DNA from: Mytilus galloprovincialis
Taxonomy: Eukaryota > Mollusca > Bivalvia > Mytilida > Mytilidae
NCBI RefSeq assembly: GCF_965363235.1
Contig: NC_134843.1
Coordinates: forward strand, 63,713,865-63,777,864
Length of the DNA: 64,000 bases
Direction: 5' to 3'
Positions 29,125 to 50,043 of the stretch are shown piece by piece. The notes below the pieces were generated by a model. That model saw only the letters and a program-made list of their open reading frames with translations, did not search any database and was not told the origin of the DNA. Position 1 is the first letter of the stretch. Each line of letters starts with the position of its first letter. A program made the position numbers and the translations under genes.

Positions 29125-29936
29125 GTTCTATATATATAGCTTAATAAACGGTATGGAATGTTCTTTCAATAAAAGAACAAGAATTTGATAAGGTCAGCGA
29201 TATGTTAATAATGAACAAATTTATATCTCATTTAAGGTCAAATTCGTTTCTTTTTCGTATTATGTTTCGTTCAGTATGTAATAGGTGAAATAATTTTTGA
29301 AATGATATAGAAAAGTGAATATCATTACAACTTAAAATAACACATTCCAATTCATAAGCCCGCATTACGTAAAAACGACGAATCAAAGACTGCAATTTTG
29401 TATAACTTATATACAAGTATTGGTGTTGTTTGAAAATAAAAAAAAATGTTTTCCATATGATTAATATTACCATTATGTTCCTGGTCGAATTGAATACCAA
29501 TTTTAATAGTATAGGTCACGATTGGTGTACAGTGGATACCTGATTCGTGTATTTCGCGTATTTCCACTTCAAATGAGTTTTTAGAGAAACGCACGACTGC
29601 AGGTATCTATTTGTTTCTTCTAATCTGAATTTAATTTTTTTTTTTGCATTAGTCATGTTTGTCAAGATTTAAAATCCCTCTTTATATCAACCCCTAACAG
29701 GGATCTTTGCTTTAAGGGGTTACTAGAAAATATTGCATTATCAAGATGTATTGCTGACTAATTGTTTTTTTTTTTAACATATGAGTTTCTTTTAAGGTAA
29801 TTTATAATTCCATTTAAATATTCTGTCTTTATCTAACTTTTTCTTATGAATTGCTAATACTTTTGATTCAACTGCTGTTCTACAAAACGTTTTCTAAAAG
29901 TATTTTTTAAAGACAAACATAATTAGTTAATAATAT
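29125..29936. other. Left flank of the 20-kb element
   Basis: No exon was recognised here. The two overlapping minus-strand frames at 29228-29594 lack coding character. Confidence 0.35.
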
Positions 29937-29980
29937 AACTGATTCCATTTCTAAAAGGGAAAATCCATTGTTTTCCTTTT
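29937..29980 (+). repeat. Left terminal inverted repeat of the 20-kb element
   Basis: Begins AACTGATTCCATTTCTAAAA and continues GGGAAAATCC. It is the inverted counterpart of 49927-49970, with four mismatches in 44. Sequence similarity stops outside both copies, which sets the boundary. Confidence 0.85.
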
Positions 29981-30139
29981 TTATCTTTGTAAACCATTTT
30001 AAGATTAATTTAATACATTAAATGCTTTTTTAATACTTTATTACTAACTTAAGTATTAGATTTTTCATATTGGCTATAGAATTTTTACAAATTTTACAAT
30101 ATCTTGTAAATTTATTATGAAATGTTTCCTTCAATATAC

Positions 30140-30459
30140 TAGTCCAAAGACCATTTTTAACATGTACACATAGCATAAAATTTGCTATCTGGTCGTTAGA
30201 CCAAAACTGAAGAAGTGACTTTTTATTGTTGTAAAAAAAAACATCAATACAAACTTAATAAATACCAAATGTTTAATCAACAAATGTTTTGAATAAATAT
30301 TGTGGTCTTTCAACCAAAACGAATGTTGTCAAACGATATTGTATTATTCTGGTCTAAAGACCAAATATTCATGTATTTTCTTATTCATATAGAAAAAACA
30401 ACCAAACAATTAAACCAATCTATAGGTTGTTTGATACTCATAAACTGGTCTTTAAACCA
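30140..30459. promoter_or_regulatory. Left cluster of TGGTC-N4-GACCA palindromes
   Basis: Five 14-bp sites: 30140-30153 (TAGTCCAAAGACCA), 30190-30203 (TGGTCGTTAGACCA), 30303-30316 (TGGTCTTTCAACCA), 30350-30363 (TGGTCTAAAGACCA) and 30446-30459 (TGGTCTTTAAACCA). Two are perfect in the arms and three have one mismatch. The central four bases vary while the arms hold, as expected for binding sites of a dimeric protein. They lie 160-520 bp inside the left end. Confidence 0.8.
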
Positions 30460-30970
30460 AAAAAAAAAGAAAAGAAGAAGAAAATGATTCGGTAGAATTT
30501 TTAGTATTTACTATTAAAAACAAAAGATCAATATCAACGAATAAAAGCCAGATAATAAAAAACACAAAACACATCTAGGATTCACTGTCAATGTCATTCT
30601 AAGCGCTTTGGGTCTCTCACATGTTATCAATAAGTTACTACTAAGATATTTTGGAGAATAAAACAATTTTTATTAATGAAATATTTAAAATGTGTTCGAA
30701 ACTTGTAATTACAACTGACAACTGTCTGAATAATATATAAGTTGGTTTGAAATAGGAGGATAGATATGTGATGTAACAATTCTTTCCCAAAGACTTAGGA
30801 ATATTTTGAGGTAAAATATCAACACTAAATGCAAATATTCGTCTATCAAAAAATACATGAACAATGATTCTAAAAGAAAATATATCGCTAAGTATAATCT
30901 ATGTTTTTGGTAATAACTTTTAATTTTAAAAAAATAAATATATGAAGAGTAAATTTTTCTGGAAATTTCT

Positions 30971-31010
30971 TTAACATTCTTCTTCCTTTTCTTTGCTTGG
31001 CATGTTTTCT
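30971..31010 (-). CDS. DUF7869-like gene probable last exon
   Basis: The acceptor region is TATTTCAG|AG or TATTTCAGAG|. The second choice reads ENMPSKEKEEEC and a stop at 30973-30971; the first stays open much further through AT-rich DNA. I prefer the short acidic ending, but the sequence alone does not settle it. Confidence 0.35.
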
Positions 31011-34000
31011 CTGAAATAGAAGAAACGATATATTTACATAAATTTGCTTAATGCATATTCATCTTTTTTTCTTCAGCTTTAAAGGAAGATATCAATATGA
31101 GGTTGAAAATGGCGATACCTTCGTGACTATTCACGGAAAAATTCTTGTCAATTGTCGCGATCGTAAACGATAATTTTTGGGCATACTTACCCTCCAATAT
31201 ACTTAAAATTTCTCAAATGATAGAACAAAATACAAATTACATTATACCTTCTGATTCTTTTCTATTTCCTTTTGATGTCTTTTTTTGTTGTTTTGACTGT
31301 ACTTGCACCTGAAATGTACGAGTTCATATACATTGTAGTTTGTTTGAACAAATCACGTTTCTACATTTTGAAAATAACATCGAATGCAGATTTTTAAATA
31401 ATTGATCTTTGACTTAACATATAACAGAAGACGATAGCGAAAAAAAAAGGTGACGTATAGTATTTTTGTGTCCTATATTGATAAACTATGTCTTATCTTT
31501 TAGTTAAATGAACTCTGGAAAGCATAATATACGGACAAACTTTTCACATCGACTTAAAGCATTATTTATATTGTGATGGTCTATTTTTTTTACTTTTTTA
31601 TTTCAATACAATGAAACTAGAGATTAAATTGATTAATATATAAAATGAGCAATGTGAAAACTTATATAGATAAGAACTAGACCGACTTACAAAACATTCC
31701 TCTCGCTCATTTTCCAATAATCTCCTTAGTTCTGCTGGAATGTCTTGATCAACGGATGGTCTTTGTCTTTTCAATTGCTGTTTGGGTAACAAAGGGAGAA
31801 TCCATTTTGCCTTTGATAGAACTTTTGTCCTTCTGTATGGCAGACTGTCTCTAATTTTTTCTAGATGTCCAAGAAATCCTCCCCACCACTTTTGCTCTGT
31901 ATGTTCTATTTGATCAGTGAATAGACATTGCCACTGTGGTATTCTAGATTTGATCTTATTTATATCTATCTTCTCGAACTGAGGATTGATAACTTTTGGT
32001 ATTCCCTTTGGTAAATTAGGTTTCCCGGAAATTAGTTGAATAATGCCATGTTCAGTTTTCCATTCGCTGTCTTGGAAAGCTTTGTACTGCATTTTCACAT
32101 TATGTGTTGCTAAATCCCGGATAAACTTATAATGCAAAGGTTTAGTATGCTTACGAATGTCGTTAAGGCTTGATGTTATCCATGAACGAATGTCATAAAT
32201 AGCCTCTATATCCTTAACGTTCGGAAGCATCTCCTTCAGACGAGGCATTGTTTCAGCATCATTCCTACGAAGAGTTTCAGCTATTCGGCTAAAAGCAGCA
32301 TCCACATCTTCGTGTGTATGTCCTACTGGTAAAAATGATAAATGCACCTGAAAAGAAAATTTGCTATTTGTAACAGTAAAATAATTGGTGATTTAAATAC
32401 GCTAACCTGTAATGCTAGAAAGAACTAACATTATAAGTGTGTAAAATGCCAAATTGCTTGTATTTTAAGAGTTTACAATACCCATCGTATTGAAAGTCAA
32501 AATGTATATGAATAAAGAGCACGTGATACGCCCGTAGTATTTTCAAAGAATTAAGTTCCAGTACTCCTAAATGTCATGTTATAAATTTATATAAAAAAAA
32601 AATTCAAGGGATGTTATATTGATAGATATAAACCAGCCTTCAAAAGTTTCATGAAATCTTTTTGAGTTGTTGTCCGAAAACTGACTAATCCCCATCCCTT
32701 TATGACTATAACCTCACAACTAGGAACGGTAATTGCCATAATATATAACATCGATAGCATACTTCAATAAACACTTCACCAAAGTATCATGAAAAATGTT
32801 CAAAGCATTTGACAGTTATTATCCGAAAACACTGGAAAATACCCCTTTTAAATGGATAAAATTCCTATAACTTAATTGAACACGTAAAATCTAAAATTCA
32901 TAAAAAAAGAAAGAGACTCACGTAGACAGATCTATATAAATAATGTTTGATGCAGATTGTTATTATCCGACATGTTGACAACGGACGGACGGACTAACGT
33001 TCAGCGGTATACCATAATACATTTTGTAAACAGATGTACATGTACTTATACAAACTGTGAGTCAACTAGCCTATTTTTAAGATGTGTGTGTTAGCTCTCT
33101 GGTTAGAAAAAAGTTCCACCTAATTCATTAAGATATTAATAACTTCTATTCAATATAAGTTTCACTGGGAAAAACATTTCTAACTAAAATCGTAGAAGTA
33201 TTTTACTTCCATGCTAAAACCTTATATTACAGGCATCATAACTTACATGATCAACCAAAAGTCACACAAAAAATCCCCAAAAGGGGGTCTTGTAAATGAG
33301 TGTTTTACAGACAGACGTACCATTAGCATGTATAAACTATAATCAATGATACATACATGTGTGCAATTTCAGAGGTAATTATATGGATAGGCAATAATTA
33401 ATGTGTCAATTGATCATATATTTTCATAGTCTGGTAAGATACAATGTATATGTATATACTGTGCACTGTTCTTTTTATCTACTTGATGTGAATGACCCCA
33501 TGTGGTTAGCATCTTTATCTGTGGAATTATTGTTGACACAAGATAATTAATCCTTATTAAGATGTCACTGATTATAATATGTTAGAGAGGAAATATATAC
33601 AAACCATTAATATAGTATAACAAGAGGCTACGTTTTTCAAGTCCAGTCCTACATTTATAGTCCCTCCTCGTGAAAAAGAAGGGGGAAGACGGTTCTGATC
33701 CCAAAATCCCGGGCTTAAAAACATGAAATCCCGAGGTCCCGAATTTAAAAAAAAAAATCCCGACATCCCGAACTTCGGAAAGAGAATTCCCGGGTCCCCA
33801 AAGCGTAAATCCCGAAATCCCGAGCTTATAAACACCCCGAAAAATGTCCTGCCGCCCCTCAAGACCATACAATTTCGAATAAAGCAAATCATTGTATTTA
33901 TTTCTCGAGTAATAATAACACATAAGAATTCAGTGCTGATGAGTTTTAATGTACTATATTTTCAAGGATTTGAGGGATCACAGGACCTTATAATTATCCA

Positions 34001-37000
34001 ATACCCACCCCTCCCCCGGTTGGATCTGCCTATACATTATGTTTAACACTTCCCACAGTTTTAACCCTTAAACCAAACCGTTTTAAATCTTGAAATAACC
34101 ACACCGTTTAAATCTAGCAATAGCTAATACTTATTTCTTGAAGTGAAGAGGAAGTCCTCAACAAATTTGCCGAGCGGAGGTAAGAGGAATATATATATTT
34201 TTTTTGCGTAAAACTATTTTCACCTTTAAGGCTCATGTATATACCCACACAACCACCGGGTAACTGTTCCTTTCAATAAAGTAACAAGAATCGCAATGAT
34301 TTGTAAATTGCAACTTACCTCATTGAAAATGCGTTGGTGAACAAGGAGTTCACAAAAACCCAATACATATCGATTTTTATTTTCCCGCCAACAATTATCT
34401 GCTTGCAAGTACAAAATAGGCGGTAACTTGTTACCCTACAAGAACAATAATCATAAAATTACTTCAGTATAGTATCTTACCACAGTTTTACCTTATAGAC
34501 ACATCGTTTTATAATAAACTTCTTATAATCACTCGTAATAATCCGTAAATGGCTCCCGAACAATTCATTAAAACTGTCAAAACTGTCGCAAAATGACCAA
34601 ATCGTAAGGGTTTGTGAATGTGTGTGATCCTTAAGGGCTCGTTAGATAAGTTCGTGGATGTGAAACGGTGCATGATAACTTGGATTGTCCATAGATCAAC
34701 TCAAACCATCTACAAAGTCAACTCGGATCAGCCTATTCAGACAAAGAGATGTTCTACTTTTTAAATGATTAAACGAGTGTCTACGAAGAAGACAATTCAG
34801 ACTGTCAATGAAAATGCAGCGAGATTATTAATGATAATCATCTATATATAATAAAAAAGAATTCAATTTATGGAAAAATTACGGATTTACATAAAACTTT
34901 TTGGGGGCACATTAACTCGATTTCAAAGGCAACAAGTTAAAATGGCAATTGTTATGCCCCACCTACAATAGTAGAGGGGCATAGTGTTTTCTGGTCTGTG
35001 CATCCGTAAGCCCGTCCGTCCGTCCGTTCGTTCGTTCGTGTACTTTGGACACATTCTTGTTATGTTAAATATAACAACTAACCATTCAAAAAGCACAAAA
35101 CTCTGTCAAATTATATGGCTAATCAGACGAACTTATTTGTTTTGGGTGTATAGATTAATTATTTTTAACAAATTAAAAAGATATGTAGAAATGTGGATAA
35201 CAGTAAAACTCGAAACCAATTCAATACTTAATTGATATGGTGTGCCGCTTGGATTCTGTTATCTCATCCTTTACATAATACTTTCGATTCAAAAAATGTA
35301 TTACTTTTCATATAATGCCTAGGATAAATGCAACTTTTTATTGGTATGATTTTGTGTGATGTGTTCATAGGAGTTCAAATCTGAGAATCAGCTATTCCTT
35401 ATGTCATGTTTACCTACGGCGAGACTTTTTGATGTGAAAAAAATACAGGGCGTGTCATACAACAAGTAATTGGAACTCTTTTGACCTTATTTCCGATTGT
35501 TTTCAAATATATTCATATATTTTCAAGCTGGAAATGTGACCAATTCAAGCGGCACGCGCTATCACTTTGTATATAGTATAGGGAGTGTTCATCACCACCC
35601 TCACCCCACCCGAGGTCACACATGTATTGCCTGATTATACGTTTAAATTGTGAAGTGTTTTACTTACCATAAGTTTTGAAATCTGGTGAAGAATTAGCAT
35701 AAGGATATTCATGGTCAGGTTAGAGTCGTGCACATATTGGTTCCAGTCGAGAAAGGTGAAAAATTTATTTTGTCCATGAGCTAAAACTCCGGTGACATGT
35801 GTCGTTAGTTGATCAACTTTATTCACAGCCTGCAATAAAACGTGTCAATAAGACAACTACATATATATGTAAGGACCAAAGTAAAAGATATATACAGATA
35901 TAGATTCGTTTTAAATTTTTTTTTTACTATACTAAAGAAATATAATAAAAAATAATTTACAAGACATACTAAAAAGAGGAAGTCTGTAAAAAACTGACAA
36001 AATCAAACGCTGTGTACGGAACAAGTTAATTCAAAACACAATTGCCATATTCCTACATTTTTGTAGCTTGGTACATAAATTTTAATTTAAAAAAATGGAG
36101 GTACAATGTCGCGTATGACTGTATGGATCTGTCATTTAATTTACAGTTGTGGCGTGGTCGTAAATTCGCGAATAATTCCTCTCAAACTGCCGTCTAAAAA
36201 CTTGCAATGAGATAAAAGCTTAGTATGATAAATTAATTGTACATAAAAAAATCGCTCTAAATGGATAGATTGATTTATTGTTGGTTGCTTAACCTCTAGT
36301 GTTCTTTAAAAGAAAACGTTTGCATGGTAAAAGATACAAAATAATGTCTGCATAATTCAAAAACAAATCATAATCCCCTCCCCTTTGAAGTTTAATGGTC
36401 GTTCTCTAATTTTGGTGCTATTTTCACATTTCCTGACCGGTGTGAGAAAAATAAAATTCTCCTCACTATTGAAAAATCTGTTCTCGGAAAATGATTGGTT
36501 GAAAAGTTAATTGTGACGTTTTCTTCTTAATTCAATTGAATGTCTTATTTAAGTCTCACCCCTCAACAAGTACATGTAAATAAATACATTGTAACTTGAA
36601 CTAACACTAAATAAATTGAGAGCCATTATCAGAGACTATAACATGCTTAGATATAATACACTAAACAATATGAAATAAAATACTATTTACACATGTACAT
36701 ACGGAGAGTGAAATCACTTTATATAACAATATCCATTATTCAGATGACGATAGGTCATAAGTTGGAAATAAGTACCGACTGTATACCATAGCAAAAAAGA
36801 AATTAAAAAACAAACAACGGAAAAAACAAACAACTACCAAATAATTTAAAACACTACATGAAAAATACGGAAATGGGGGTTAGCAATACGAGCGCATTAA
36901 ACAAAATCTTATCGCATGTGCTGGAATATAGAAAAAAAAAGTAACTGTAGGTCTGAATAAATTACCCATTTTTTTTTTTATTATTTAGAGTTGTCGTCTT

Positions 37001-38432
37001 GCTGTATTCATACAATATTATATAGGCTTATTAAACAGTTGTTACAGTATAGCTAAAACAAATAGCAAAGAAACAATCACCACTGCTTAAGACGTAATCC
37101 CACTGAATGTGTGGATCGTAGCTTTTAAGTTATGCAATGTCCAGATAAAATGTTACAGAAGCTGCGCCCCGTGGTGAAAATTGCCGTAAAAGTAATGTAT
37201 GTATACTAAGTATTCCGATCTATAACGAAAAATCTCACCCGCGATCACATCCTCAAAGCAAGAAAACACTTACATGTAATGCGATTAGCTCTCCAATTAT
37301 AACATTTAGGAGGATTAATACGTTACTATTAACAGGATTATATTAAAGTCTGTTTTGTGAAAATTCGTAACTTGATAAACTTGTCTAAGTGGTTTTTTTA
37401 TTAGATGTCCGCTCCTGACCCCATACTTTTGAAATTTATCATTTGATATCAGTCCTGTGACTGAAAACAAGCTCAGCGTATTTTAAAATATACAGTGCTA
37501 GGAAATTTCACCGTCACAGGCCGTAGGAAATTGTATATGGAAATAGGAAGGTACAAACATGTGCAGTTCCCATGAAATTTTTTTTGTATATATAAAAAAA
37601 CAAAGGAAACATTTTAGTCTTGCTACCCACGTGTAACTAGCAAATCGATGTTTATCCTCAAGAATACCAGATTAACCTTTATTTGATTTATTAGGTTAAT
37701 AAGGTCCACTAATTTTCCCTTATCTAAATATTAAAGCATACCCAAAGAAAAGTGATATATACTGTATGATCTGTCTGCATTGAATATGTTAAATTCATTA
37801 AAAAGGAGTGAAAGATATAATCACAACAATAAATCATAATAAAAGAAGATGCGGTATAATTACAAAAAAGGCATTTCTCCGCAAGAGACCAAATTACACA
37901 GACATTAACCACTATATGTCACCATACGGCCTTCAACAAAACAAATGTTAATCAATTCAAACGAGAACACTAACGGCGTAACTTATGTACAAAATAAGGA
38001 TCGAACAAAATAATATGTAAAACAGCAACAAACGACAACGTTACCACTGAATTACAGGTTCACGAATAGGGACAGGCAATTTTAGAATGTGACCGAACCA
38101 AGTATATATAAGCGAACGCCTTACACCCCTCTTTTTTCTGTAGAGTATACATTCGGTTTAAAAAAAAAACGCCAATAACTACCCAAATGTATCTTGAAGT
38201 CTTTGATCATGAATATTTAAAACATTTTAATTATAATAATATATGTGAACCTCTATATTTTTGAATTAATCATTTTTTTTAAATTTTTTTTTAAAGATAT
38301 GAATATTTCAAATTGACTTACCTCTGAAACTGGGTTGCAGTTCTCTCTTATATTCGTCTTGACACCATTCAAAGTTTGAACAGATAACAACACGCTTAAA
38401 CACAGAGCCGATAAAAAAATACAGCAGTCCAT
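30971..38432 (-). CDS. DUF7869-like, transposase-like protein with hydrophobic leader
   Basis: Minus-strand exons: 38322-38432, 35668-35829, 34319-34435, 31691-32347, 31248-31308 and a short last exon near 30971-31010. The first five junctions are GT-AG and in phase; the product is about 380 aa. The domain reads NKVDQLTTHVTGVLAHGQ (from ~39), ILYLQADNCWRENKNRYVLG (98-117) and FLPVGHTHEDVDAAFSR (135-151), the hallmark order of the domain Pfam calls DUF7869 (number from memory). The acidic/asparagine motifs QADN and GHTHEDVD suggest an RNase-H-fold nuclease core, which is inference. Residues 1-20 are strongly hydrophobic, odd for such a protein, and the part that usually precedes this core in relatives is not visible. 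The tail is rich in K, R, Q and E. Confidence 0.78.
31248..31308 (-). CDS. DUF7869-like gene exon 5: basic linker
   Basis: 61 nt, acceptor ATTTCAG|GTGCAAG, donor GAAG|GTATAAT, phase 0 in and phase 1 out. It encodes VQVQSKQQKKTSKGNRKESE, a charged, possibly nuclear-targeting stretch. The short length makes it less sure than the exons before it. Confidence 0.5.
31691..32347 (-). CDS. DUF7869-like gene exon 4: GHTHEDVD motif
   Basis: 657 nt, acceptor TTTTCAG|GTGCAT, donor TGTTTT|GTAAGTCGG, phase 0. It encodes SFLPVGHTHEDVDAAFSRIA at the start and a variable region to ENEREECF. Histidines and acidic residues in the motif (H140, H142, E143, D144, D146) are candidate metal ligands, by inference. 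Confidence 0.92.
33655..33850. repeat. AATCCCG-rich repeat in an intron of the DUF7869-like gene
   Basis: ATCCCG and TCCCGA recur about ten times between poly-A runs. The overlapping open frames on both strands come from the repeat. Confidence 0.7.
34319..34435 (-). CDS. DUF7869-like gene exon 3: QADN motif
   Basis: 117 nt, acceptor TTCTTGTAG|GGTAAC, donor AATGAG|GTAAGTTGC, phase 0. It encodes LYLQADNCWRENKNRY and LGFCELLVHQRIFNE. D104 of QADN followed by ENKN is the most conserved signature of this family. Confidence 0.9.
34950..35240 (+). repeat. Dispersed repeat with (CGTC/TTCG) microsatellite, intronic
   Basis: Starts ATGCCCCACCTACAATAGTA, then GGGGCATAGTGTTTTCTGGT and a CGTCCGTCCGTTCGTTCG run. 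A related copy is at 46105-46550. In an intron of the minus gene. Confidence 0.75.
35668..35829 (-). CDS. DUF7869-like gene exon 2
   Basis: 162 nt, acceptor TTATTGCAG|GCTGTG, donor CTTATG|GTAAGTAAA, phase 0 at both ends. It encodes AVNKVDQLTTHVTGVLAHGQ and FTFLDWNQYVHDSNLTMNIL, the N-terminal part of the domain core. Confidence 0.85.
37845..38130 (+). repeat. Dispersed repeat family C, intronic copy
   Basis: AGAAGATGCGGTATAATTAC, then GCAAGAGACCAAATTACACA and ACGGCCTTCAAC, the family C order. It lies in the first intron of the DUF7869-like gene. Confidence 0.65.
38322..38432 (-). CDS. DUF7869-like gene exon 1: leader
   Basis: The start codon lies at 38432-38430, then MDCCIFLSALCLSVLLSVQT and NGVKTNIRENCNPVSE. 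The donor is TCAGAG|GTAAGTCAA, phase 0. It could be a true first exon giving a secreted or membrane-anchored form. An AG six bases before the ATG could instead be an acceptor; the reading frame would be the same. Confidence 0.6.
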
Positions 38433-38607
38433 TATGTTCTAATTGGAAAGTAAGAAACACATGGTTTAAAAATATACATGTAAAAAATGCGCACGTGTCT
38501 AGCAGGCGTGGCTTCGCAATGCGATTAAATATAACCAGTGGTGTGACATTGTAGCAGTCCACTATTTTTTTTTCTAAATCGAGATCAAACGGTCATATTA
38601 CGCAATA
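38433..38607. promoter_or_regulatory. Bidirectional promoter region between the two genes of the element
   Basis: 175 bp separate the two start codons (minus ATG at 38432, plus ATG at 38608). It contains a CACGTG E-box at 38492-38497 and GGCGTGGC just after, a GC-richer patch in AT-rich surroundings. No TATA box is placed convincingly for either gene. Head-to-head start sites this close normally share one promoter. Confidence 0.6.
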
Positions 38608-38730
38608 ATGTCGGGTTCAGAGAGATGGAAAATCATGATTGAAAACGGAAGACTTTGTGTAGAGGAAAATGGTAGATATTTTGAGGACATCGACAATGTT
38701 GGAACAACAAGAGAATTTGGAATTATCAAG
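38608..38730 (+). CDS. ParB-like gene exon 1
   Basis: Starts MSGSERWKIMIENGRLCVEE. The donor ATCAAG|GTGACT is weaker than the others but in phase 0. This ATG is the first in frame, and exon 2 continues the same small domain. Confidence 0.75.
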
Positions 38731-41700
38731 GTGACTATATAAACATTTTAGTAATTTACAATTTTATTTGGTCAATTGTGGATAAGAAAAGCCATCGGAA
38801 AAAAAACTACAAGCTCAACAAACTTGTATTGAAAGCAAATAAAAATATTCAAATCAAAATAATACATAAAAGTAAAGAGATACTTTTAAGTATAGAGTAG
38901 ATAACTTTCTATTAAAAGTTGCATTTAACTTATATTAAGGACGTCACTAACACAATTAGTGTACTACATGTATACTATTGTTTCTTAACACATTGTTTTG
39001 GAGTTGTAAACATAGGAAACTCTAAAAATATAAACTGAAATAGTAAAACTGTTTTCTTCTTCTGTATTGAACATTGTTGAATTACATCTTCAAATGTTAG
39101 GGCAAGTACATTTAGATTTTGAATTCCTTGACATCATGTCAGTGTTATAAACAAAATCATTGATTGATCTTGTACATCTCTCTACATAAATATCTCAACT
39201 CTCGTTTTCAGAATGAAGTTTACTTTTATTAATGTTAATCCATCAATACGCTGCATATTCTTTATTACATTTACTCTTGTGAAGTAACAACTGTTCATTT
39301 TATTGTGGAACGGTCATACAATTCACATTTGTTTTTATTTTAGACTTAACACATTATCAATCAATACATGTATATTAGTTTTCGTCAATACAGAAATACG
39401 ACTGTTGGCTTCATGTTCAATGTTTGTCAACGTTCACAAAAACATGATGTTTTCTTATAATTTAAGGTTACATATGAATCTGGAAAAGCAAAAATGTATA
39501 GTTTGAAAAACTTATGCGAAGGTCTTGGTTTTGGGCCAGCTGTCAAGACTCGTTCAGGTTTTATGAAAATATGGAACTCCTTGAAAGGTGAGAAATGTAT
39601 TTGAAATGTGTGTGTTGTTCTTGTATCATGAGTACATAGTATATGTATGAGTATTTGCTTCTCTTGCATTCGTCACAACTCGGCCGATTCCGTACCTCCA
39701 TCTAAAGATAGAAGGAGAGTAGCGGTGACTCCGAGGATTGCCAACTGCTACTCTTGATTTTGACATTTTGTCCGATATTCGGAATCCTCTAGTTTTATTC
39801 ATGTAGTACCAATAAAAAAAACACTACCAACCCTTACTTTTTTATTCATATTTTTATTAAATATAGTTAAACTAGTCATTCATGAAAATCTTATACAATT
39901 CTTGTTATTTTTTCATAGTGTTTGAAAGAAAAAAGGTACCAATTTTAAATGTGTATGCATTCCAAGAGAGAATCATTTCCCGCAAAATTTTCAATTGATT
40001 ATATCTTAAAAACAAAGTCGCGGACCTATTATTTTTTCCTGCTTTTTAGCCTAGGTTCAGTTATTAGTATACTATCAATTTATACCAGTTGATCAAAAAG
40101 CTAGTTATTGTCAAAAAGAGAAGCGAATATCCTTAATCAAACTAAGGCCCTAGTTGCTGTCGTATATATTTTAAACATTGAATTTTTGGCGATGTCAAGA
40201 GGCTGATATTGTTTTTAAAAAAATGACTACCATGAACAAACATTGATAATACCGTATTTCCATGACTAGTAATCCTCGCTCCAAACTCCGCTGGACCTCC
40301 TACGACACCCGCTGGTACTTGTAGTTAAATATTTGATTGTATTCAACAAATTTATTTATGAACTGCATGTACGTGACGCTTGTATACCAAATGGTCAATA
40401 TTAATCATCCGTGTTATTTGCTCTATGGGATGTTTGTAAAATTTCAACGGAGGCAATGTCTTGGCATGATAATATCAATGAGCTTTTATTCGTATATTTG
40501 TCAAGTCTTTGTATGTGTTTTATTTCGTGATAGGAGGGGGGAAAGAAAAAAAGGTAAAAGGGGGTGGGTTATTGGCTGTCTTTGCCTACAACAATGTACT
40601 AGTGGGGTGCGTGTGAGTGCTTTTCTGTGTTTATTTGTCCAATTGGACTTGTCGTTTTTTTTACTGAAGAATATAACTGTAGCAAACAAGTTTTAACTAT
40701 ATAATTTTTTACAGCAAACGTAGACAATTATCAGCTACAGACATCTTCAACAGATAACATTGATCAGCCGGAGAACCAAGTTAATATGAATATTTCAGGT
40801 AGATGTGATTCTTTTAATACATATTTGATATTTACACACGCTTTCGTGAAATCAAGTTACTAAAGTAATCCATAAATATGATAAAATTCGGATTGAAAAA
40901 CTCTTACCATAACCAATATTATTGCATAGCAATATAATATTTCCCACAGAAAGTAACCAAAAGTTATCGTGCAATAAATTCTAATATTGCACTAGTGCAA
41001 TAAATCATCAAAATTTATGACGTCATCAACAACAAAATCTGAATTATAAAAGGAAGTTTACCCACTCACCTTACCCAGTTGCTAGTATTAGTGGTTTTGA
41101 AGATCATCCAAACAAAAATTCAAACCTCAGTGAATATTCTAACATAAGACGTAGCTTTCCAAAACAGAATTTGAAAAATGGGAAAATAGGGGGGCCAAAA
41201 ACAGGCCTTATCGTACCAGAATTGCCAGTTTTCCTGCCACACCGACTTCTTGCAACAGAGATTGGTTTTGTTTCTGTTATAATTAAGAGGTCTTTTTACT
41301 ATTCACTGAATCATAATATGGGTCATGTGGTCAATTTTATTCGTTGAACTTACATGAAGTTCTAAAGCATAAAACATGACGCGGACGTTATGATTTTGTT
41401 CGAGTATCCGGACAAAAATGATACAAGAAATTGGTATCTGTTGAAGATTTTTTTTTTTACAAAACATACATTAAAATTAACATTATAACAATTGTGTTTG
41501 CAAAGTTCCATTCTATTGTTGTGACAAATACGAAACATCTAATTCAAGATAATGCCTTTTTTCTGTGAATAGATGTACCAGGAGGGGAGGATTTAACCAG
41601 CACCGACAACAACGTAAACACATTGCATAATGTGCAAAGAAAATCCTCGACGCCAATATCACCAGTCCAAAAGAAATTATTGTCACCAATGGACAGTTCT

Positions 41701-44700
41701 GAAGGTATTTTTTGATTCCTCCTTCTTGCAAACAATTGATCTGCTGCGTCGTAATACAAGTCATGTGAATTCGGCAAACAAAAATCAATAGATATGTATG
41801 CAAGTAATATAAAATCTATAATTGCACTTAATATATATGCTTTTACAATAAAACTGAAAGAGACCAAGAACAAGTTAAAAATGTTAATGAAAATTATTAA
41901 CTATTTGAATAAAAACCATAATTACGATGCGAAAATTTTATGTATATTTTTCTTTTGCAACAGATGCATCGACAGTTGAAGATATTCTAGAACGTAGCGT
42001 GATTTCTTGCATTGAAGCGCACATAAATACAGAAGACGCTTCCGATAGCACACCAGTTACAGTGGAGCAGTCAATTTTGGACGATTATTTAATAGGTATG
42101 ATATACCATCTTCATTCTCTTAATAGGCGCTACTCATGGTATGAAGTATAGAAACTTTTAATATTAACTTTTATACTGACTATATGTTGAAGGTCGTATG
42201 GTGACTTATATTTGTTAATTTGTGTCATTCGGTCTCTTGTGGAGGGTTGTCTAATTGGTTATCATACCACATCTTCTTTTGTATACTTGTCTGTTATTTT
42301 GACATCGCCAAACATATTTTATCTCTAGTTGCTGTTTTTGTTTAATGACCATTTAAGAAAAATAATGTGCAAGTCTTAGTTTTGAACAAACTTGGGGATC
42401 GAACACACGATTACAAGGATCACTTCCAGAGGCAAGTCCTCCGAGGATGTTATTTTTTTTATTGCATATACGGGTACTGGAAACTATAACCATATCAACT
42501 TCAGAAATATTACTTTTACATCAAATGTTCAAACACTTGCTCATTAAATGAACAACATATTTTTTTTTTTTTATATATTTTGAACTCGAAAAATTACAGC
42601 GCCCCCTTACGGTCATTGTCCTCCTGGAGTGATCAAAGTGATCGTAATAGAACGACTGGATTATTCGGGTTATTTGAATTGTTGATTTTCCATTCTAAAG
42701 TGATAGCATTTGTTTTCTTCTAGGAGACGCATTAAAGGTACATATTCAGAACTTAGTTATACCCGCCGATGATCGCTGTTTTCGAAATCTGGACACGAAA
42801 CATGCTCACTGTCTAAAACAATTTTATGAAAATCAGCAAATGTGTCATACAATTCTCATTGGCAACATTGTCGGCGATGTTACTACTGATAAAGGTAATT
42901 TGTCAAAGTTTCTTCAAGAACCTGGCAAAGTAGTAGTTGAAACTTTAGGTAGTAATCATACAAGACATGCGCTACAATGTTTATTCGCAAGCCAAACGAA
43001 GCCTATTAGCATGGTAACATGTCGGTTATACAACAAATTACCAGACGAGTTGGCGCTACAATTAGGGTATGAACACAATGCATCTAATACATTAGGAAAA
43101 CCGACAAGTTTTGTTGATTTAGTAAAGATGTTTCGAAAAGAAGCAACAAAATTAGTAAGAGATACAGATATTAGCTGCATGCAAAGTAGTGAAGTAAAGC
43201 AATGGAAAGATATTATATGTACCATTCTAGGGATGGACAGAAAGGCGGAAGAATTTCATAACAAGTACAAGATTGTTTTAAAAATTGCAAAATCAAAGGA
43301 TTCCGTATGGAGAAAATTTTTAGAATTCTGTTCCGCTTTCGAAATGAATGAAATTAGAAATACTCCAAGAGGATCCTTAAAGATTACACAGTTGAGAGAT
43401 TTTTCAATGCTTTCTAGTGATAACCAAATACATATTTTGGAAGAAACTTTACAGACAAAAGACTGGAGAGTATTTAAGAGAGAAGTAGAAAGGTAAATAA
43501 ATGCAAATCATGTCGTGTGTACTGGGAAAAAAAATTCACTGCACTACATGATTTTCTTAAATGTTGATTTTATATTTGTAACTTGGTTTGTAAAATATGC
43601 TTCATAAAAAAGGCATTCAGCATACATTTACGTTATATCGGGAATATTATTAAAAAAAAAAAGAACCGTGGTTTTCGTAATTTAATTCACAGTTTAAGGA
43701 ATAATTGGAGCATTTCATCAACCTTGAGGAAACTCATTTGTAATATTATGATATTAAAAATGAGTTATGAAAAAAGGAATGTACATACCAATTTTTAAAA
43801 ATTTATCACCTATAAAATTGTTCACGAAAACAAAACACAAAAAAAACCCTAATAAACACCAAGACAAGAATAAAAAAAATGTACAGGCAATGTTAATGAG
43901 AGACAGCAACCAAACGACACAAATAAACTAAAATTATCTAGAGACAACACATAGCCTTACAAATATAGGCGGTCTCCATGCACTTTATCAAGCTCTTAAT
44001 TTTCCATTATATACATCTTGTGAATAAGTTATACAAAGACTACCAAAGATCTTTCGTTTAATCTAAATCCCCCCAAAAAATGTATTTATGAAATGTCAAT
44101 CGCAAAGTCATCTTGTCAACCTTCTTGATAGGTCGGGTATTTGGTGGTTGATGTAGACTGCAGCCTTGTAATTTTGTAGACTTATGTTTTTTTTTTTGTT
44201 TTTAATGTATAATTGGGCTAAAGTGCAATTTCAAAGATCTCATCGATATTTATGATAATAAGCCCACCTTTCATTAAAAAAAAACCCGGTATATTGAAAT
44301 ATTACAGAAAAGAGCTCACACTGTATATACATTGTATATCAGTAATGAAGTTACCGACTTAGATAATATCACTGGATTTATTTTGCAGTGTAAGTTCAGA
44401 TCGAAAGAAAACGATTGGGAAAACGAAAGCAGATCCGTCAGATGTTGACAGAAAGATCAATGAAAAGTATGTTAGCATTTTAAACGAACATACAGAATAA
44501 GTTTCATGCATCCATTTATGACAATATTTTTTTCAGTTTTATCATTTCACGGGATTTCCAAATATCATTGATTTATATGATTGCGTACTTTAATGTTTGA
44601 ACATCATTTGGTGCATTTCCGAACGTGCATCTAAATTATAAATTCCTACAGGCGGCACAAAACTGCCATTTTGATTTATTTTAGTTTACGATATTATTTC

Positions 44701-47700
44701 AAAACTGTCCTTTTGTTAATAACTGTTAAGAGATATTTTTTTAAATTTTAAGGTTTTCATTTGTTGATGAAATTTTCAATATTATATACCTGCAGACTCT
44801 CAAATTTCTGTTGCAAGCTGGTTTAACTGTAGTAATAAGAGAATAGTTCACTCCTCCTCCATTACAAGCATTTAAAATGTGCCTTTGCTTATTTGAATTA
44901 ACCCATTAAATTATTGAGCATTTCATTATATTTATCTAGTGAATGTAAAATAAAACAACTGACTGCCGAAAGAGAAAAATTGGCAACTACTTCATCAACA
45001 TTAAAATCAAAGTTGACAGAAGAACAAAAGAAAACAGAGGACTTCGAGACATTGTTGAATCAAGAAAGGAAAAAATGCAGTGCACTTGAAATTAAATTAC
45101 AGCAACTGAGGAGATCAGAGAATGAACTCAAAGTTGTCTTGGATAAGCAGATTGATAAAAATGAAAAATCTAGTAATCTGCTACAAGTTGAAAAAACAAA
45201 ATACCAAACCCTGGAAGAAATGTACAATAAATTGGTAAGTTGAGTACTCTGTTTTTTAGGGCTGTAATAGCCCTTTTGACAAAACGCTTATTTTGTTGAT
45301 GATATATGGAATAATATTCTGCAACAGACTTACGATAGTTATCAGATCACATTAATGATGCATAAAGAGTTGTTCAATTGACCATGCAGTCTGATGATCT
45401 TGATCTTGCATTACATAATTAATCAAACATATTTACCAGCTTAGAATAACATGAATAAATACCAGAGACAACAAAGAAAAATGATTTATACAATAAACAT
45501 CTTACATGTTATGTACTTGTATTTAAACATAATAAGAAAATATTCCTTATTCAAATGTTCTCAATACGCAAACTCTGAAAACAATGATGTTTTTACAGGA
45601 AGAAGCAAAAGCTTGTTTAGAAAAGAAAGTTCAGGAATTTGAAGAATCTAGTAGATGTCAACATATTGAAAAACACAAAAGCCAAGTAGACAACTCTATT
45701 GTAAGTTTTATAACCTACGTATATATTTACCTTACAATTAAAAAAAAATGTCCTTTAATTTTTGTTAATTGTTTGTTCAACAAATGATATTCACTTTGTT
45801 GGTCTGAGTGAACGTAATTAACTTAAAATCGGGAAAATGTGTTGAGTTTCGTACGTAATTCTTCTTTCGATGCAAGTTACAAAATAATGTTGACCCCTGC
45901 GTTCATAATTTCTCATTTTTTTTAATTTGGTCTGATTCTGTTATTCATATGCATTTGCTTTGCAAATGAATGATTTTCATTGGATAATTTTACAGTTTTT
46001 CCTTTTTATTATATTTTATTATAAATTTTAGTTCCAACGTGTGTATCGTCACGTTTGTTTCATCAACTATTATCTATATCAGTCTATATCAAGTGTACGT
46101 TAAGTTTTTATGCACAACCTACGATAGTAGAAGGGCATTACATGTATGTTTTCTGGTCTGTGCGTCCTTCCGTCTGTTCGTTCGTTCGTTCGTCCGTCTG
46201 TCCGTCCGTCCGTTCGTCCCACTTCAGGTTAAAGTTTTTGGTCAAGGTAGTTTTTGATGAAGCTGAAGTCCAATCAACTTTAAACTTAGTACACATGTTC
46301 CTTGTGATATGATCTTTCTTATTTTTAAACCAAATTAGACTTTTGACCCCATTTCCATGGTCCACTGAACATACAAATTAAAAGTGTGAGTTTCAGGTTA
46401 AAGTTTTTGGTCAAGGTAGTTTTTGATGAAGTTAAAGTCCAATCAACTTGAAACTTTTAAGACCAAACTAGATCTTTTACCCAATTTCACGGTCCATTCA
46501 ACATGGAAAATGGTAATGCGAGTGGGCATCCGTGTACTTTGGATACATTCTTGTTCAATATAGATTTGTATATTAAGTTTGTTTGCTGTTAATGACTACA
46601 TATTACTGTAACTGTCTGTGACGTGCCATTGTCTTTAGAAAACTTTTCATAATATCTCTTAAAAAGATATACACAACATATTTGTATATATTTACAGGTA
46701 TCTGGTAGAGATTTGAATCCAAAACAAAAACTAAAAAATGACTGCAGTCACAGTGACAACTTAAACAAGAAGAAAAGAAGGATGAGTTCAAAGGTAAATA
46801 AAAGAATAAAAAATGTGTACAAACAACTATAACAAAATCTCCGATTACAGAATAATTCTGGACAGTATTGGCGTAAATAGACAGTGGGCAAATTTGAACA
46901 TTCTGGACATTTCTGCCTCTCTAATATTTGTTTCTATCCAGAGCAATTTTGAAAAAAAAATCTCAAAACTTGTGCTTTACTCCAAGTCTATTTTAGCCAT
47001 GCGGGCCATATTAGTTGGCAGGTGGGATCATAAGAAAATTTAAAAACAAAATACTCCAATGATGCGTATTGCCGAATTTAGATAAATCTGGCAATGTAAT
47101 TTCATAGAAGATTTGCTAAAAGGTTTACAGATAACGACAATACATGTTGTACGATATTTTTAACCTACTTTTAGGACGAGTTTAACTGCTGGACAGGTGG
47201 AGACTAGTCGGCCATGTCTTTAAACCTTGTCAATCTTTCGGGTCTAGACACAAAGAAATACACGGTGTGGTATAAACTCTATCATATGTTTTGTGCAGTT
47301 GTAAGATGCTTATTTTTCATTTATGTTGTAGGAGTTTGAAGTTGGTACGTCTGTTGAAGCATTTTGGTATCCAGACAAGTGTTGGTATACTGCAAAAATA
47401 CTAATGAAGACAGGAAAAGGTAAGTACTGTTTTATGAAAACAAAATTTGGGGGGCAAATGTTATCAGATATAATATCAGACTGCACAAAGATAATTCTGT
47501 CGTATAAAGAAATAAAAGTGGAAATGTTTTGTACTCAATCAACACATGTACATATAAGTTGAAAAATAATCATATTAGTAAAAGTTTTCAATTCATGGTA
47601 GCTATCCTGATGAAACAATTCAACAAAAAAGACTTGACGTTTATTTTTACAGAGGAGCACTTGTACTAAACTATCGTTTCGGTATATATTTATTTAATAA

Positions 47701-48264
47701 ACTTTTTTAGTTTATGAACTTTGTTTTAAATCCATTTGCAAAGAGAACGTCAAATATAAGTTTACGGTAATACAGATTTTTTTCAAAAGTACTACTTTTA
47801 GTACTTTTAGGCGTTGCATCGTCAGGTCAAGCATATTTGACTTCACAAATCTAATACTTAATTTAACAAGGACCAGAGCAGAAGATATTGGCATGTAGTC
47901 ATGTATTCTAAAACCAGGATTTATGACACTTAATCTATCTGAAAAAGTACCGATAAAAGCATTACATGCTATATAATATATAATCACACATACTCCTGTA
48001 TTTATCAGTAATTTATATGGCCAGGGGTACTATTTTGAACCGACAAAAATACATCTTATTAATCGAAGTCAGTTACTCTTTACTAGTATCATTATAGTTT
48101 CAACATTCAAGTAAATTAGTCCACAATTTATTATTGATTAAGACTCAGATCTTTAAAAAAAAAATGATTTTTTTACAGGCTATGAAGTAAAGTATGATGT
48201 TGATAAATTTGTCAAAGATCTCCCTTTAAAGTATGTGAGAGCGGGAAAAAATTCTACAGAATAG
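38608..48264 (+). CDS. ParB/sulfiredoxin-like and Tudor-like domain protein, 701 aa
   Basis: Twelve plus-strand exons, all GT-AG and all in phase from ATG (38608) to TAG (48262-48264): 38608-38730, 39467-39587, 40715-40798, 41573-41704, 41964-42095, 42724-43492, 44389-44466, 44940-45234, 45599-45700, 46698-46793, 47332-47419 and 48179-48264. Residues 1-81 form a small unrecognised domain; 82-197 are polar and probably disordered. Residues ~203-330 resemble the ParB/Srx fold: VIPADDRCFRNLD, then GSNHTRHAL (273-281) in the place of the ParB GxxR motif, then ALQLGYEHNASNTL. Residues ~480-612 are coiled coil, 613-644 basic, and 645-701 Tudor-like (SVEAFWYPDKCWYTAKIL, YEVKYDVD). Likely nuclear. 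Its divergent partner is the transposase-like gene; the pair probably acts together. The domain calls rest on motif memory, not a search. Confidence 0.8.
39467..39587 (+). CDS. ParB-like gene exon 2
   Basis: Acceptor AATTTAAG|GTTACA, donor TTGAAAG|GTGAGA, phase 0 in, phase 1 out. It encodes VTYESGKAKMYSLKNLCEGL and then GFGPAVKTRSGFMKIWNSLK. Its compact charged/aromatic pattern suggests a folded N-terminal domain shared with exon 1; family unknown. Confidence 0.8.
40715..40798 (+). CDS. ParB-like gene exon 3
   Basis: 84 nt, acceptor TTTTTTACAG|CAAACG, donor TTTCAG|GTAGAT, phase 1 at both ends. Encodes a polar N, Q, S and T-rich linker. Confidence 0.7.
41573..41704 (+). CDS. ParB-like gene exon 4
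   Basis: 132 nt, acceptor CTGTGAATAG|ATGTAC, donor TCTGAAG|GTATTT, phase 1 at both ends. Encodes a linker with RKSSTPISPVQKKLLSP, whose SP/TP sites could be phosphorylated. Confidence 0.75.
41964..42095 (+). CDS. ParB-like gene exon 5
   Basis: 132 nt, acceptor TTGCAACAG|ATGCAT, donor TTAATAG|GTATGA, phase 1 at both ends. Encodes DASTVEDILERSVISCIEAH and an acidic stretch ending ILDDYLI. Confidence 0.75.
42195..42290 (-). repeat. Dispersed repeat family C end, intronic
   Basis: The reverse complement starts GAAGATGTGGTATGATAACC; a short end of the family within intron 5 of the ParB-like gene. Confidence 0.6.
42724..43492 (+). CDS. ParB-like gene exon 6: ParB/Srx-like core
   Basis: 769 nt, acceptor TTCTTCTAG|GAGACG, donor GAAAG|GTAAAT, phase 1 in, phase 2 out. 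It holds the whole ParB-like segment: NLVIPADDRCFRNLD (207-221), ILIGNIVGDV, VVVETLGSNHTRHALQCLF (267-285), CRLYNKLPDELALQLGYEHN and a helical region to residue ~454 that may bind DNA. Confidence 0.88.
44389..44466 (+). CDS. ParB-like gene exon 7
   Basis: 78 nt, acceptor TTTTGCAG|TGTAAG, donor GAAAA|GTATGT, phase 2 at both ends. Encodes a lysine-rich linker (DRKKTIGKTKADPSDVDRK). Confidence 0.7.
44940..45234 (+). CDS. ParB-like gene exon 8: coiled coil
   Basis: 295 nt, acceptor TTTATCTAG|TGAATG, donor AAATTG|GTAAGT, phase 2 in, phase 0 out. Encodes a long coiled coil with leucines at heptad spacing (KIKQLTAEREKLATTSSTLK and onward), probably for dimerisation. Confidence 0.88.
45599..45700 (+). 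CDS. ParB-like gene exon 9: coiled coil end
   Basis: 102 nt, acceptor TTTTTACAG|GAAGAA, donor TCTATT|GTAAGT, phase 0. Encodes EEAKACLEKKVQEFEESSRC and a polar end, continuing the coiled coil. Confidence 0.8.
46105..46555 (+). repeat. Dispersed repeat with (GTTC/GTCC) microsatellite, intronic
   Basis: CCTACGATAGTAGAAGGGCA, TTTTCTGGTCTGTGCGTCC and a GTTCGTTCGTCCGTCTGTCC run, then two similar blocks starting TTCAGGTTAAAGTTTTTGGT (~46224 and ~46392). Lies between exons 9 and 10 of the ParB-like gene. Confidence 0.8.
46698..46793 (+). CDS. ParB-like gene exon 10: basic segment
   Basis: 96 nt, acceptor ATTTACAG|GTATCT, donor TCAAAG|GTAAAT, phase 0. It ends NKKKRRMSSK, a good nuclear-localisation signal. 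Confidence 0.75.
47332..47419 (+). CDS. ParB-like gene exon 11: Tudor-like domain, first half
   Basis: 88 nt, acceptor TGTTGTAG|GAGTTT, donor GAAAAG|GTAAGT, phase 0 in, phase 1 out. Encodes EFEVGTSVEAFWYPDKCWYT and AKILMKTGK, with the aromatic residues typical of Tudor-family barrels. Confidence 0.85.
48179..48264 (+). CDS. ParB-like gene exon 12: Tudor-like domain end and stop
   Basis: 86 nt, acceptor TTTTTACAG|GCTATG, stop TAG at 48262-48264. Encodes GYEVKYDVDKFVKDLPLKYV and RAGKNSTE. AATAAA signals occur downstream near 48757 and 48863. Confidence 0.85.
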
Positions 48265-48954
48265 ATCGATTAGCTGAAACAAAGAAGAATGACCATCATT
48301 GGAGGAAAACTATGATGCACTTGCTAGCCAAAGTGGAGAAATATTTGACGAACATGTGTTTTTTTGAATTATTATTGTTGTCCCTATAGAAATAATATAG
48401 ATATTGTAAATAATGCGTAGTTGTTAATTATTGTCATAGAAAGTATCATATAGCTTTACTCTGCGTAAGGAATTTACAGCAGTCATTGTGACAAAGATGG
48501 GGATTTCTTTATCATTTACACCAGAAATTTGCGAAAAACAAAAGGAAAGCAATGGAAAATACCAATAATAATCAGCCACGTTTTGATTCATTATGCTTAT
48601 TAATTGCATTTGAAGTTGGATGGTGATGTTTAATTGATAAATGATATGAAAATATCATTGACTTTAAGTGTTCTACCATCTTAGATGAAGCGAATTAGTA
48701 TCTACAACGCACATTTCAATATTAAAGACAGATACATACGACCGGTTCACAAAATCGTTAGAAAAATAAATCTAATTTCAAATAAAGAGTTCCAAAGTAA
48801 TATGCAATTTCAAAGTAATCAATAGATCTGAAAAAAGAAACTTTTATATGAAATTCATCTTTAAATAAATACTTCGACAGGTATGGTACACGTTTTTGTT
48901 TACCAGAAATATGCATCATTTCAGGGCCTTTTATTGTTGAAGATTCGGTATGGA

Positions 48955-49075
48955 TTTTGCTCTTTTTTGAAGGCCATACGTCACAGTAAACCTATAGCTT
49001 TTTTATGTCATTTGGTCCCTTGCGGAGAGTTTTCTCATTTACAATCATACCACATCTTCTTATTGAATATTTGAA
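48955..49075 (-). repeat. Dispersed repeat family C end, near the right end of the element
   Basis: The reverse complement starts AAGAAGATGTGGTATGATTG and includes GAGAAAACTCTCCGCAAGGG. It inserted downstream of the plus gene inside the 20-kb element. Confidence 0.65.
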
Positions 49076-49139
49076 AACGAAAATGTTACCGGTTGATTAT
49101 GATATACATGTACGTACCTTTCTAATCTATGAATAAGTG

Positions 49140-49352
49140 TGATTAGAGTAACGTTTTCACGTTGTTCTTGGTCTAAGAACCAAAAAGCAATTTACGCATT
49201 ATATTTTACATTCAATTTTGTTCTTGGTCTAAGAACCAAAATGCGATATACGCATTATATTTTACATTCAATTTTGTTCTTGGTCTAAGAACCAAAATGC
49301 GATATACGCATTATATTTTACATTCAATTTTGTTCTTGGTCTAAGAACCAGA
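49140..49352. repeat. 56-bp tandem repeat carrying one palindrome per unit
   Basis: TTCTTGGTCTAAGAACCA recurs at 49165, 49221, 49277 and 49333, exactly 56 bp apart, with near-identical sequence between (CGCATTATATTTTACATTCA). The whole unit is repeated, so this is not a CRISPR-like repeat-spacer pattern. Confidence 0.9.
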
Positions 49353-49696
49353 AAAAATAAGATTGATACTAATTTATTTGATATCATTCGTTTAGTTGGT
49401 CTATAGACCAAAATCTGGTGGACAACAGCTCTATCATCTGCGTGAATGTAACATTTTTGTTTGTTTAAATTAGTTAAATATAAACAACTTAGCGCTGACG
49501 CCTGATGTCCAAAGTGTTTCTGTTTTTGGTCTCGAGACCAGACTTTTTCAAGCATAAACAGTTTTATGCAAGTAAATACAAATAACAGTTTGTTGTGTTG
49601 TTTTCAAATGATGGGTTCATGCAGGGATTCAGCCATACCAGTTTTATATTCAATGTGAGAACTTACCCGTTTTTTTATATTCTGGTCCAATGACCA
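49169..49696. promoter_or_regulatory. Right cluster of TGGTC-N4-GACCA palindromes
   Basis: Seven 14-bp sites: 49169-49182, 49225-49238, 49281-49294 and 49337-49350 (all TGGTCTAAGAACCA), then 49397-49410 (TGGTCTATAGACCA), 49527-49540 (TGGTCTCGAGACCA) and 49683-49696 (TGGTCCAATGACCA). The last three have perfect arms with different centres. Their placement mirrors the left cluster, which makes chance unlikely. Confidence 0.85.
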
Positions 49697-49926
49697 AAAT
49701 ATGTATACACCGATCTAAAAATGATTCCAATTCTGTTAGACAAAACTGTTATAATTTATCAAAAAACAATTTGGGGAAATTTCAATGTCACTGCTAGTGA
49801 TATATCAATGGTATGGGTGTTAGAATTTTCAAAATTATTCAAACTTTTCAATGAAGTCAGTTAAATATGTCGATCTGCATTGGTATTTTAACTAGTACAT
49901 GAATGTATAATGGTTGACATGTTTCA

Positions 49927-49970
49927 AAGAGGAAAAGAATGCATTTTCCCTTTTAGAAATGGATTCAGTT
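49927..49970 (-). repeat. Right terminal inverted repeat of the 20-kb element
   Basis: Reverse complement begins AACTGAATCCATTTCTAAAA and continues GGGAAAATGC. It is the partner of 29937-29980. Confidence 0.85.
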
Positions 49971-50043
49971 ATATATAAAATATTCTATCGCTATTATATT
50001 AACTTTTCCTTTGATCTTGCTCACTGATAATTTCCTTTCTCAG

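Follow-up and report, generated by a model that had tools for sequence, protein, structure and literature searches.

A probable internally deleted copy of a giant two-gene cut-and-paste transposon in Mytilus galloprovincialis

Inverted ends, palindrome arrays and two genes at the locus

We analysed a 64-kb stretch of the Mytilus galloprovincialis genome (the window), in which positions 29937–49970 form a 20,034-bp element with inverted ends and two genes. Very probably it is a non-autonomous copy, shortened by an internal deletion, and belongs to a recently active family of cut-and-paste DNA transposons of giant size (about 25–31 kb). BLAST self-comparison of the window found a pair of terminal inverted repeats (TIRs; E 5e-12) at 29937–29980 on the plus strand and 49927–49970 on the minus strand. 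Alignment of the left repeat with the reverse complement of the right one confirmed to the base what an earlier reading of the letters alone (the sequence-only reading) had claimed, namely 44-bp ends with 40 of 44 bases in agreement. The termini begin AACTGAWTCC (end sequences: AACTGAWTCCATTTCTAAAAGGGAAAAT), and a search for the TIR pattern in viral contigs gave 0 matches. On the left, similarity extends to position 30001; the end-to-end similarity as a whole reaches 69 bp at 84% and stops thereafter. The element is flanked by exact 4-bp ATAT target-site duplications (29933–29936 and 49971–49974), a feature that the sequence-only reading had left unclear and that is clear across the copies described below.

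Just inside each end lies an array of the palindrome TGGTCN4GACCA, with five sites on the left (30140–30459; two exact, three with one mismatch) and seven on the right (49169–49696; three exact, four with one mismatch, the latter spaced at a 56-bp period). The mirrored clusters noticed in the sequence-only reading are thus borne out: 12 of the 15 sites with at most one mismatch in the window fall within 0.81 kb of the element ends, as against 0.02 sites per 2 kb on average, and never more than 2, in a first-order Markov control, and all five exact sites are inside the two arrays. Because the similarity between the ends is lost at about 69 bp, the left and right arrays must have gathered the motif independently rather than being a copied end.

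Between the arrays we found the two divergent multi-exon genes of the sequence-only reading, the first of them incomplete. Gene 1, on the minus strand, comprises exon 1 (36596–36626; MALNLFSVSS), exon 7 (35668–35829), in which the DUF7869 domain starts, exon 8 (34319–34435; QADNCWRENKN motif), exon 9 (31691–32347; DUF7869, GHTHEDVD motif) and a 3′-terminal exon with approximate limits (31260–31312); exons 2–6 are absent, a loss not visible to the sequence-only reading. Its full-length relative is the 861-residue M. edulis protein P0004 (a cluster of 34 members), of which the window gene covers only residues 1–10 (an exact match at 36626–36597) and about 535 onward. Relative to the C12 and C9 copies, about 5.0 kb is gone at approximately 36359, and alignment to other copies places the deletion junction at 36356–36362. 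The lost exons include the one bearing the first conserved Asp, and joining the 31-nt exon 1 to exon 7 would be out of phase. Given the loss of exons 2–6, the window copy is neither autonomous nor domesticated; the proposal that it is an autonomous or recently domesticated element falls, and what remains is an internal-deletion derivative.

Gene 1 is a strong member of Pfam PF25273 (DUF7869; E 2.1e-74, 249.7 bits against a gathering cut-off of 26), an entry that states no function and that is tied here to TIR elements; we found no paper on DUF7869 by name in the open-access PMC literature. Fold prediction and the domain's conserved acidic residues point, at modest scores, to a DDE/RNase-H transposase, and the gene 1 product is likely to be a DDE-type transposase on this modelling. 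No named transposase family in Pfam matched gene 1, no PDB entry matched P0004 by sequence, and no relative was confirmed when the DUF7869 alignment was compared with viral contigs. Among the best 120 of 187 matches, DUF7869 relatives occur in bivalves, amphioxus, one sea urchin, corals, sponges and one liverwort. In Pinctada imbricata, the predicted proteins P0027 and P0032 link DUF7869 to an OTU domain or a DNA glycosylase, which could reflect cargo, fusion with a neighbour or gene-model error. In the window, gene 1 exon 1 overlaps, in a different frame, a decayed stretch (SKHVIVSDNGSQFI; 36596–36650, minus strand) that we take to be integrase-like; this overlap raises the possibility that exon 1 originated in a remnant of Gypsy type.

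Gene 2 (38608–48264, plus strand) is intact, with 12 exons encoding 701 residues, GT–AG introns and consistent phases. Exons 1–6 lie at 38608–38730, 39467–39587, 40715–40798, 41573–41704, 41964–42095 and 42724–43492, and exons 7–12 at 44389–44466, 44940–45234, 45599–45700, 46698–46793, 47332–47419 and 48179–48264. In a search of 5.8 billion proteins, which detects only relatives with short exact words in common, the relatives of gene 2 were three Mytilus clusters, P0001–P0003; the M. edulis protein P0001 (21 members) also has 701 residues and is 97% identical. The core, exon 6 (42724–43492), has relatives found in Mytilus only, and its structure model was too poor to use (pLDDT 39.9). Exons 8–9 (44940–45700) are coiled-coil-like, with an SMC-like match far under the family cut-off. 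The Tudor-like domain of the sequence-only reading survives as a weak Agenet/Tudor-like tail in exons 11–12 (47332–48264), the Agenet match scoring 22.5 bits, below the gathering cut-off of 27; its ParB-like domain finds no support, as none is listed by Pfam, PHROGs or NCBIfam profiles at E up to 10. Against the PDB, P0001 gave no sequence match and the tail one weak match (E 0.48), and no relative of the core was confirmed in viral contigs. Gene 2 is an element-borne protein with a novel core, a coiled coil and a weak Agenet/Tudor tail, and within the reach of our searches it appears to exist solely inside the element. A further M. edulis protein, P0003, is 79% identical to part of gene 2 in a predicted fusion with a PF00058 domain, and is probably a decayed older copy.

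Dispersed copies and a second DUF7869 family

The ends recur well beyond the window. With the 113-nt right end as query, the 1.385-Gb M. galloprovincialis genome yielded 29 end matches. We take 16 of them as right ends and 13 as left ends, and they make up 12 inverted pairs: ten copies of 20–31 kb and two of 3.5–4 kb. The long copies are the window element (20.0 kb) and those on C5 at 79.8 Mb (25.1 kb) and 63.1 Mb (26.3 kb), C11 (27.4 kb), C12 (27.5 kb), C6 at 28.5 Mb (27.8 kb), C9 (27.9 kb), C7 (28.5 kb), C10 at 35.7 Mb (29.9 kb) and C2 (30.8 kb); the short ones, derivatives that share the ends, are on C10 at 10.9 Mb (4.0 kb) and C14 at 57.9 Mb (3.5 kb). Among the matches listed, four right ends lack a partner. 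Eleven of the 12 pairs lie between exact 4-bp target duplications (GTAT, ACTT, ATAC, ATAT, CAAT, AGTA, ACAT, ATAT for the window, ATAT, ATAT and ACTA), the exception being the C2 copy, with TTTA and ATTT on its sides at a one-base offset. The flanks show no similarity between copies (nine left and eight right flanks compared). Six long copies have a mean identity of 96.2–97.9%, with gaps, to the window or C12 copy; the short C14 copy has 87.6% over 2.0 kb. Within C2:3495850–3544100, a stretch containing 100 N, two left ends lie 16.7 kb apart with one right end; the two share the same flank, so the extra one looks like part of one copy that was duplicated locally or in the assembly.

Both genes are present at all ten long paired copies, in keeping with the sequence-only reading of an undescribed-looking transposon with both genes inside its ends; neither of the observations that it named as refuting was made. 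Of the ten, seven were read along their length (C2 to about 1.3 kb short of its right end) and the other three at their ends and in part of their exons. Each of the seven has both genes, and DUF7869 has its full span in five, being truncated in the window and in the C5 copy at 79.8 Mb. Gene 2 is open throughout in three of the seven (the window and two others), and gene 1 exons 1–9 are free of stops and length changes in three, one of these with an altered exon 9 acceptor; a single copy has both genes open. Genome-wide protein searches, whose counts are lower bounds (64 of 329 candidates scored for gene 2, 53 of 301 for DUF7869), placed gene 2 exon 6 at at least ten loci, all paired long copies, with a piece of the exon also in the short C10 copy, and close DUF7869 matches (91–99% in large exons) at the same ten loci. 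At C14:64106371–64108640 (64.1 Mb), outside the listed end pairs, are pieces of an old broken gene 2 copy at about 80%.

The same DUF7869 search gave at least 24 further matches at 37–48% identity. Three of these loci were fetched and belong to one repeat family, with the right end AACGCGTTCTATTTGAAAAAG and termini AACGCRTTC. Searching with this end gave 40 matches (27 right, 13 left) and 12 inverted pairs 21–30 kb apart (for example C6:23133814–23159896, plus 11 further pairs), leaving 15 right ends and one left end unpaired among the matches listed. Exact 4-bp duplications, ATTT among them, flank nine of the 11 pairs whose ends were read, and two lack them. Each of three copies has seven exact GGGGAN4TCCCC sites 281–670 bp from its right end, and two copies have six and five sites (at most one mismatch) 149–547 bp from the left end; the 16.4 kb of interior sequence searched contained no such site, and the Markov control gave 0.01 per kb. 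L047, the one copy inspected for it, has a decayed frame at its GHTHED motif. Over the 18 kb read from each of three copies, which is all but some 4–9 kb in the two of known length, tblastn (E 1e-5) found no relative of gene 2. The two families thus have in common DUF7869, termini that begin AAC, target duplications of 4 bp and mirrored palindromes of 5+4+5 layout, a combination that supports DUF7869 as the transposase; the palindrome sequence itself differs, as expected if the palindromes are bound by a protein that diverged with each family.

Selection, mechanism and alternative explanations

We compared substitutions against the C7 copy. Divergence was 0.75–2.30% outside exons, 0.20–1.38% in gene 1 exons and 0.66–2.04% in gene 2 exons (six comparisons); exons fell below non-coding sequence at p < 0.05 in five of six comparisons for gene 1 and one of six for gene 2, the comparisons not being independent. 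Within the young subfamily, pooled non-synonymous/synonymous ratios were about 0.68 for gene 1 (118 and 45 changes) and about 1.1 for gene 2 (259 and 58 changes); the pool comprises 15 pairs from six copies and excludes all pairs that involve C5a or C10s. Of the excluded rows, those of C5a gene 1 and the majority of those of C10s gene 2 are artefacts of misalignment, and those of C5a gene 2 (ratios 0.50–1.79) are not obviously wrong. The closest gene 1 pairs carry mostly non-synonymous changes, contrary to simple purifying selection. Between subfamilies, gene 1 exon 9 shows 8 synonymous and 3 non-synonymous fixed differences (p 0.0003 against neutral site ratios; one B copy), and gene 2 exon 6 shows 7 synonymous and 10 non-synonymous ones (p 0.038; two B copies). 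Gene 2 ratios between subfamilies were 0.39–0.57, and 1.09 in one row of exon 8 only (11 rows). These comparisons omit C10 for gene 2 exon 6 and C10 and C5b for gene 1 exon 9, which are cut or outside the fetched stretch. Our reading of the substitution patterns is that selection has maintained both genes in the active lineage, acting more strongly on the transposase, and that copies decay after insertion.

A mechanism can be proposed on this basis. The DUF7869 transposase would cut at the AAC ends and join them to AT-rich targets, the joining points on the two strands being staggered by 4 bp. A dimeric element protein that pairs the distant ends may have its binding sites in the subterminal palindromes, the transposase being a likelier candidate than gene 2; from what is known of such families, DUF7869 dimers or tetramers may bind them and bring the ends together across about 28 kb. 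By the same analogy, deletion derivatives such as the window copy may stem from incomplete repair after excision, and this copy would be mobile only with transposase supplied by another. Gene 2 may serve as an element-encoded accessory protein that binds chromatin or aids assembly.

Several other explanations were weighed. A segmental duplication, or a host segment whose two genes happen to be bracketed by a short repeat in inverted orientation, would accommodate the 12 exons of gene 2, an unusual number for a transposon gene. This is contradicted by the dispersed paired copies, 12 inverted pairs with unrelated flanks, 11 of them with 4-bp duplications; moreover, end similarity is gone after about 69 bp, and outside the paired copies gene 2 was found only as the old broken C14 copy (a lower bound). 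We rejected it as scarcely conceivable. Domestication, in which the window copy keeps both genes for a host function, could appeal to the intact gene 2. Gene 2 is, however, equally intact in two other copies, and gene 1 has lost five exons, among them that of the first conserved Asp, and its reading phase; this explanation was likewise rejected as very improbable. It is also conceivable, if unlikely, that gene 2 is the end-binding protein, in the manner of TnpA, and that the DUF7869 protein only cuts. The coiled coil would permit dimers that fit a palindromic site, gene 2 is found in the first family only, save the one old broken copy (again a lower bound), and its core shows purifying selection between subfamilies; against this, the second family has the same 5+4+5 end layout and no gene 2 relative in the stretches searched.

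A further question is whether the family is new. It could belong to the Sola superfamily, most likely as a Sola2-like member. DUF7869 would in that case be a second name for the transposase domain of Sola, and the family's novelty would be confined to size and the cargo gene; we rate this a substantial possibility, at somewhat under even chances. The likeness lies in element features described in two papers. According to passages of PMC10741241, Sola elements have 4-bp target duplications, as both mussel families do, and certain of them exceed 15 kb; those of PMC3627910 give AT-rich duplications for Sola2 (ATAT, AAAT, ATTT; compare ATAT in the first mussel family and ATTT in the second), a Sola2 transposase of 888 residues beside the 861 of P0004, and a second gene, Fanzor1, in some elements. 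By contrast, the mussel elements are 25–31 kb long with subterminal palindrome arrays, far above the lengths in the part of PMC10294476 on a curated bivalve library, where Sola1 (mean 5445 bp) and Academ are generally longest. Tentatively, and as a possibility we hold at less than even, DUF7869 may instead define its own superfamily of giant (20–31 kb) cut-and-paste transposons, widespread in animals, with ends paired through family-specific 5+4+5 palindrome arrays, 4-bp duplications and a dedicated second protein as accessory factor.

Relation to known elements and neighbouring sequence

CACTA/En-Spm elements resemble the transposon family proposed here in their inverted ends, subterminal motif clusters and two genes; they encode two products, the second of which binds the subterminal motif arrays. 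CACTA elements have 3-bp duplications and CACTA termini, whereas the mussel element has 4-bp duplications and AAC termini. Elements of the piggyBac, Kolobok and Sola3 type make TTAA target duplications, and those found here are GTAT, ACTT, CAAT, AGTA and others. Polinton/Maverick elements have 6-bp duplications, in contrast to the 4 bp seen here. Like the mussel element, they are large, with inverted ends and an RNase-H-fold enzyme (predicted in the mussel element), being 15–40 kb long with an RNase-H-fold integrase according to passages of PMC6431247; unlike them, the mussel element has two recognised genes, neither a polymerase, and frames of at least 120 residues in the window copy are the exons of the two genes and one other of 129 residues, a count that a split gene could escape, with no polymerase profile run. 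PMC12730594 describes TET/JBP cargo in fungal transposons, KDZ among them, a likeness in that a cut-and-paste element carries a second, possibly chromatin-related gene; gene 1, however, has no Pfam match to a named transposase family, and the mussel cargo is an unrelated novel protein. Among the papers listed by our searches of the open-access PMC literature, none was seen to describe the element, Repbase lying outside the search, and the passages of the giant eukaryotic transposon review PMC6431247 used here name none of this kind.

DUF7869, a widespread domain of unknown function, gains a likely role as the enzyme behind the movement of elements of this kind. The genome also offers a set of young and nearly identical copies of a cut-and-paste element 28 kb long, with palindrome arrays that differ in sequence between two families of one genome; together, the young copies and the arrays make it testable how such distant ends meet.

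Two stretches of the window outside the element also carry long frames. On its left side, those at 19154–22956 (plus strand) are presumably the remnant of a Gypsy-type long terminal repeat retrotransposon, with integrase-like and reverse-transcriptase-like parts. Just right of the element, a frame at 50739–52181 (plus strand), which we take to be reverse-transcriptase-like, has a 3′ part that recurs at 91–98% at 8370–9498 and 13819–14576.

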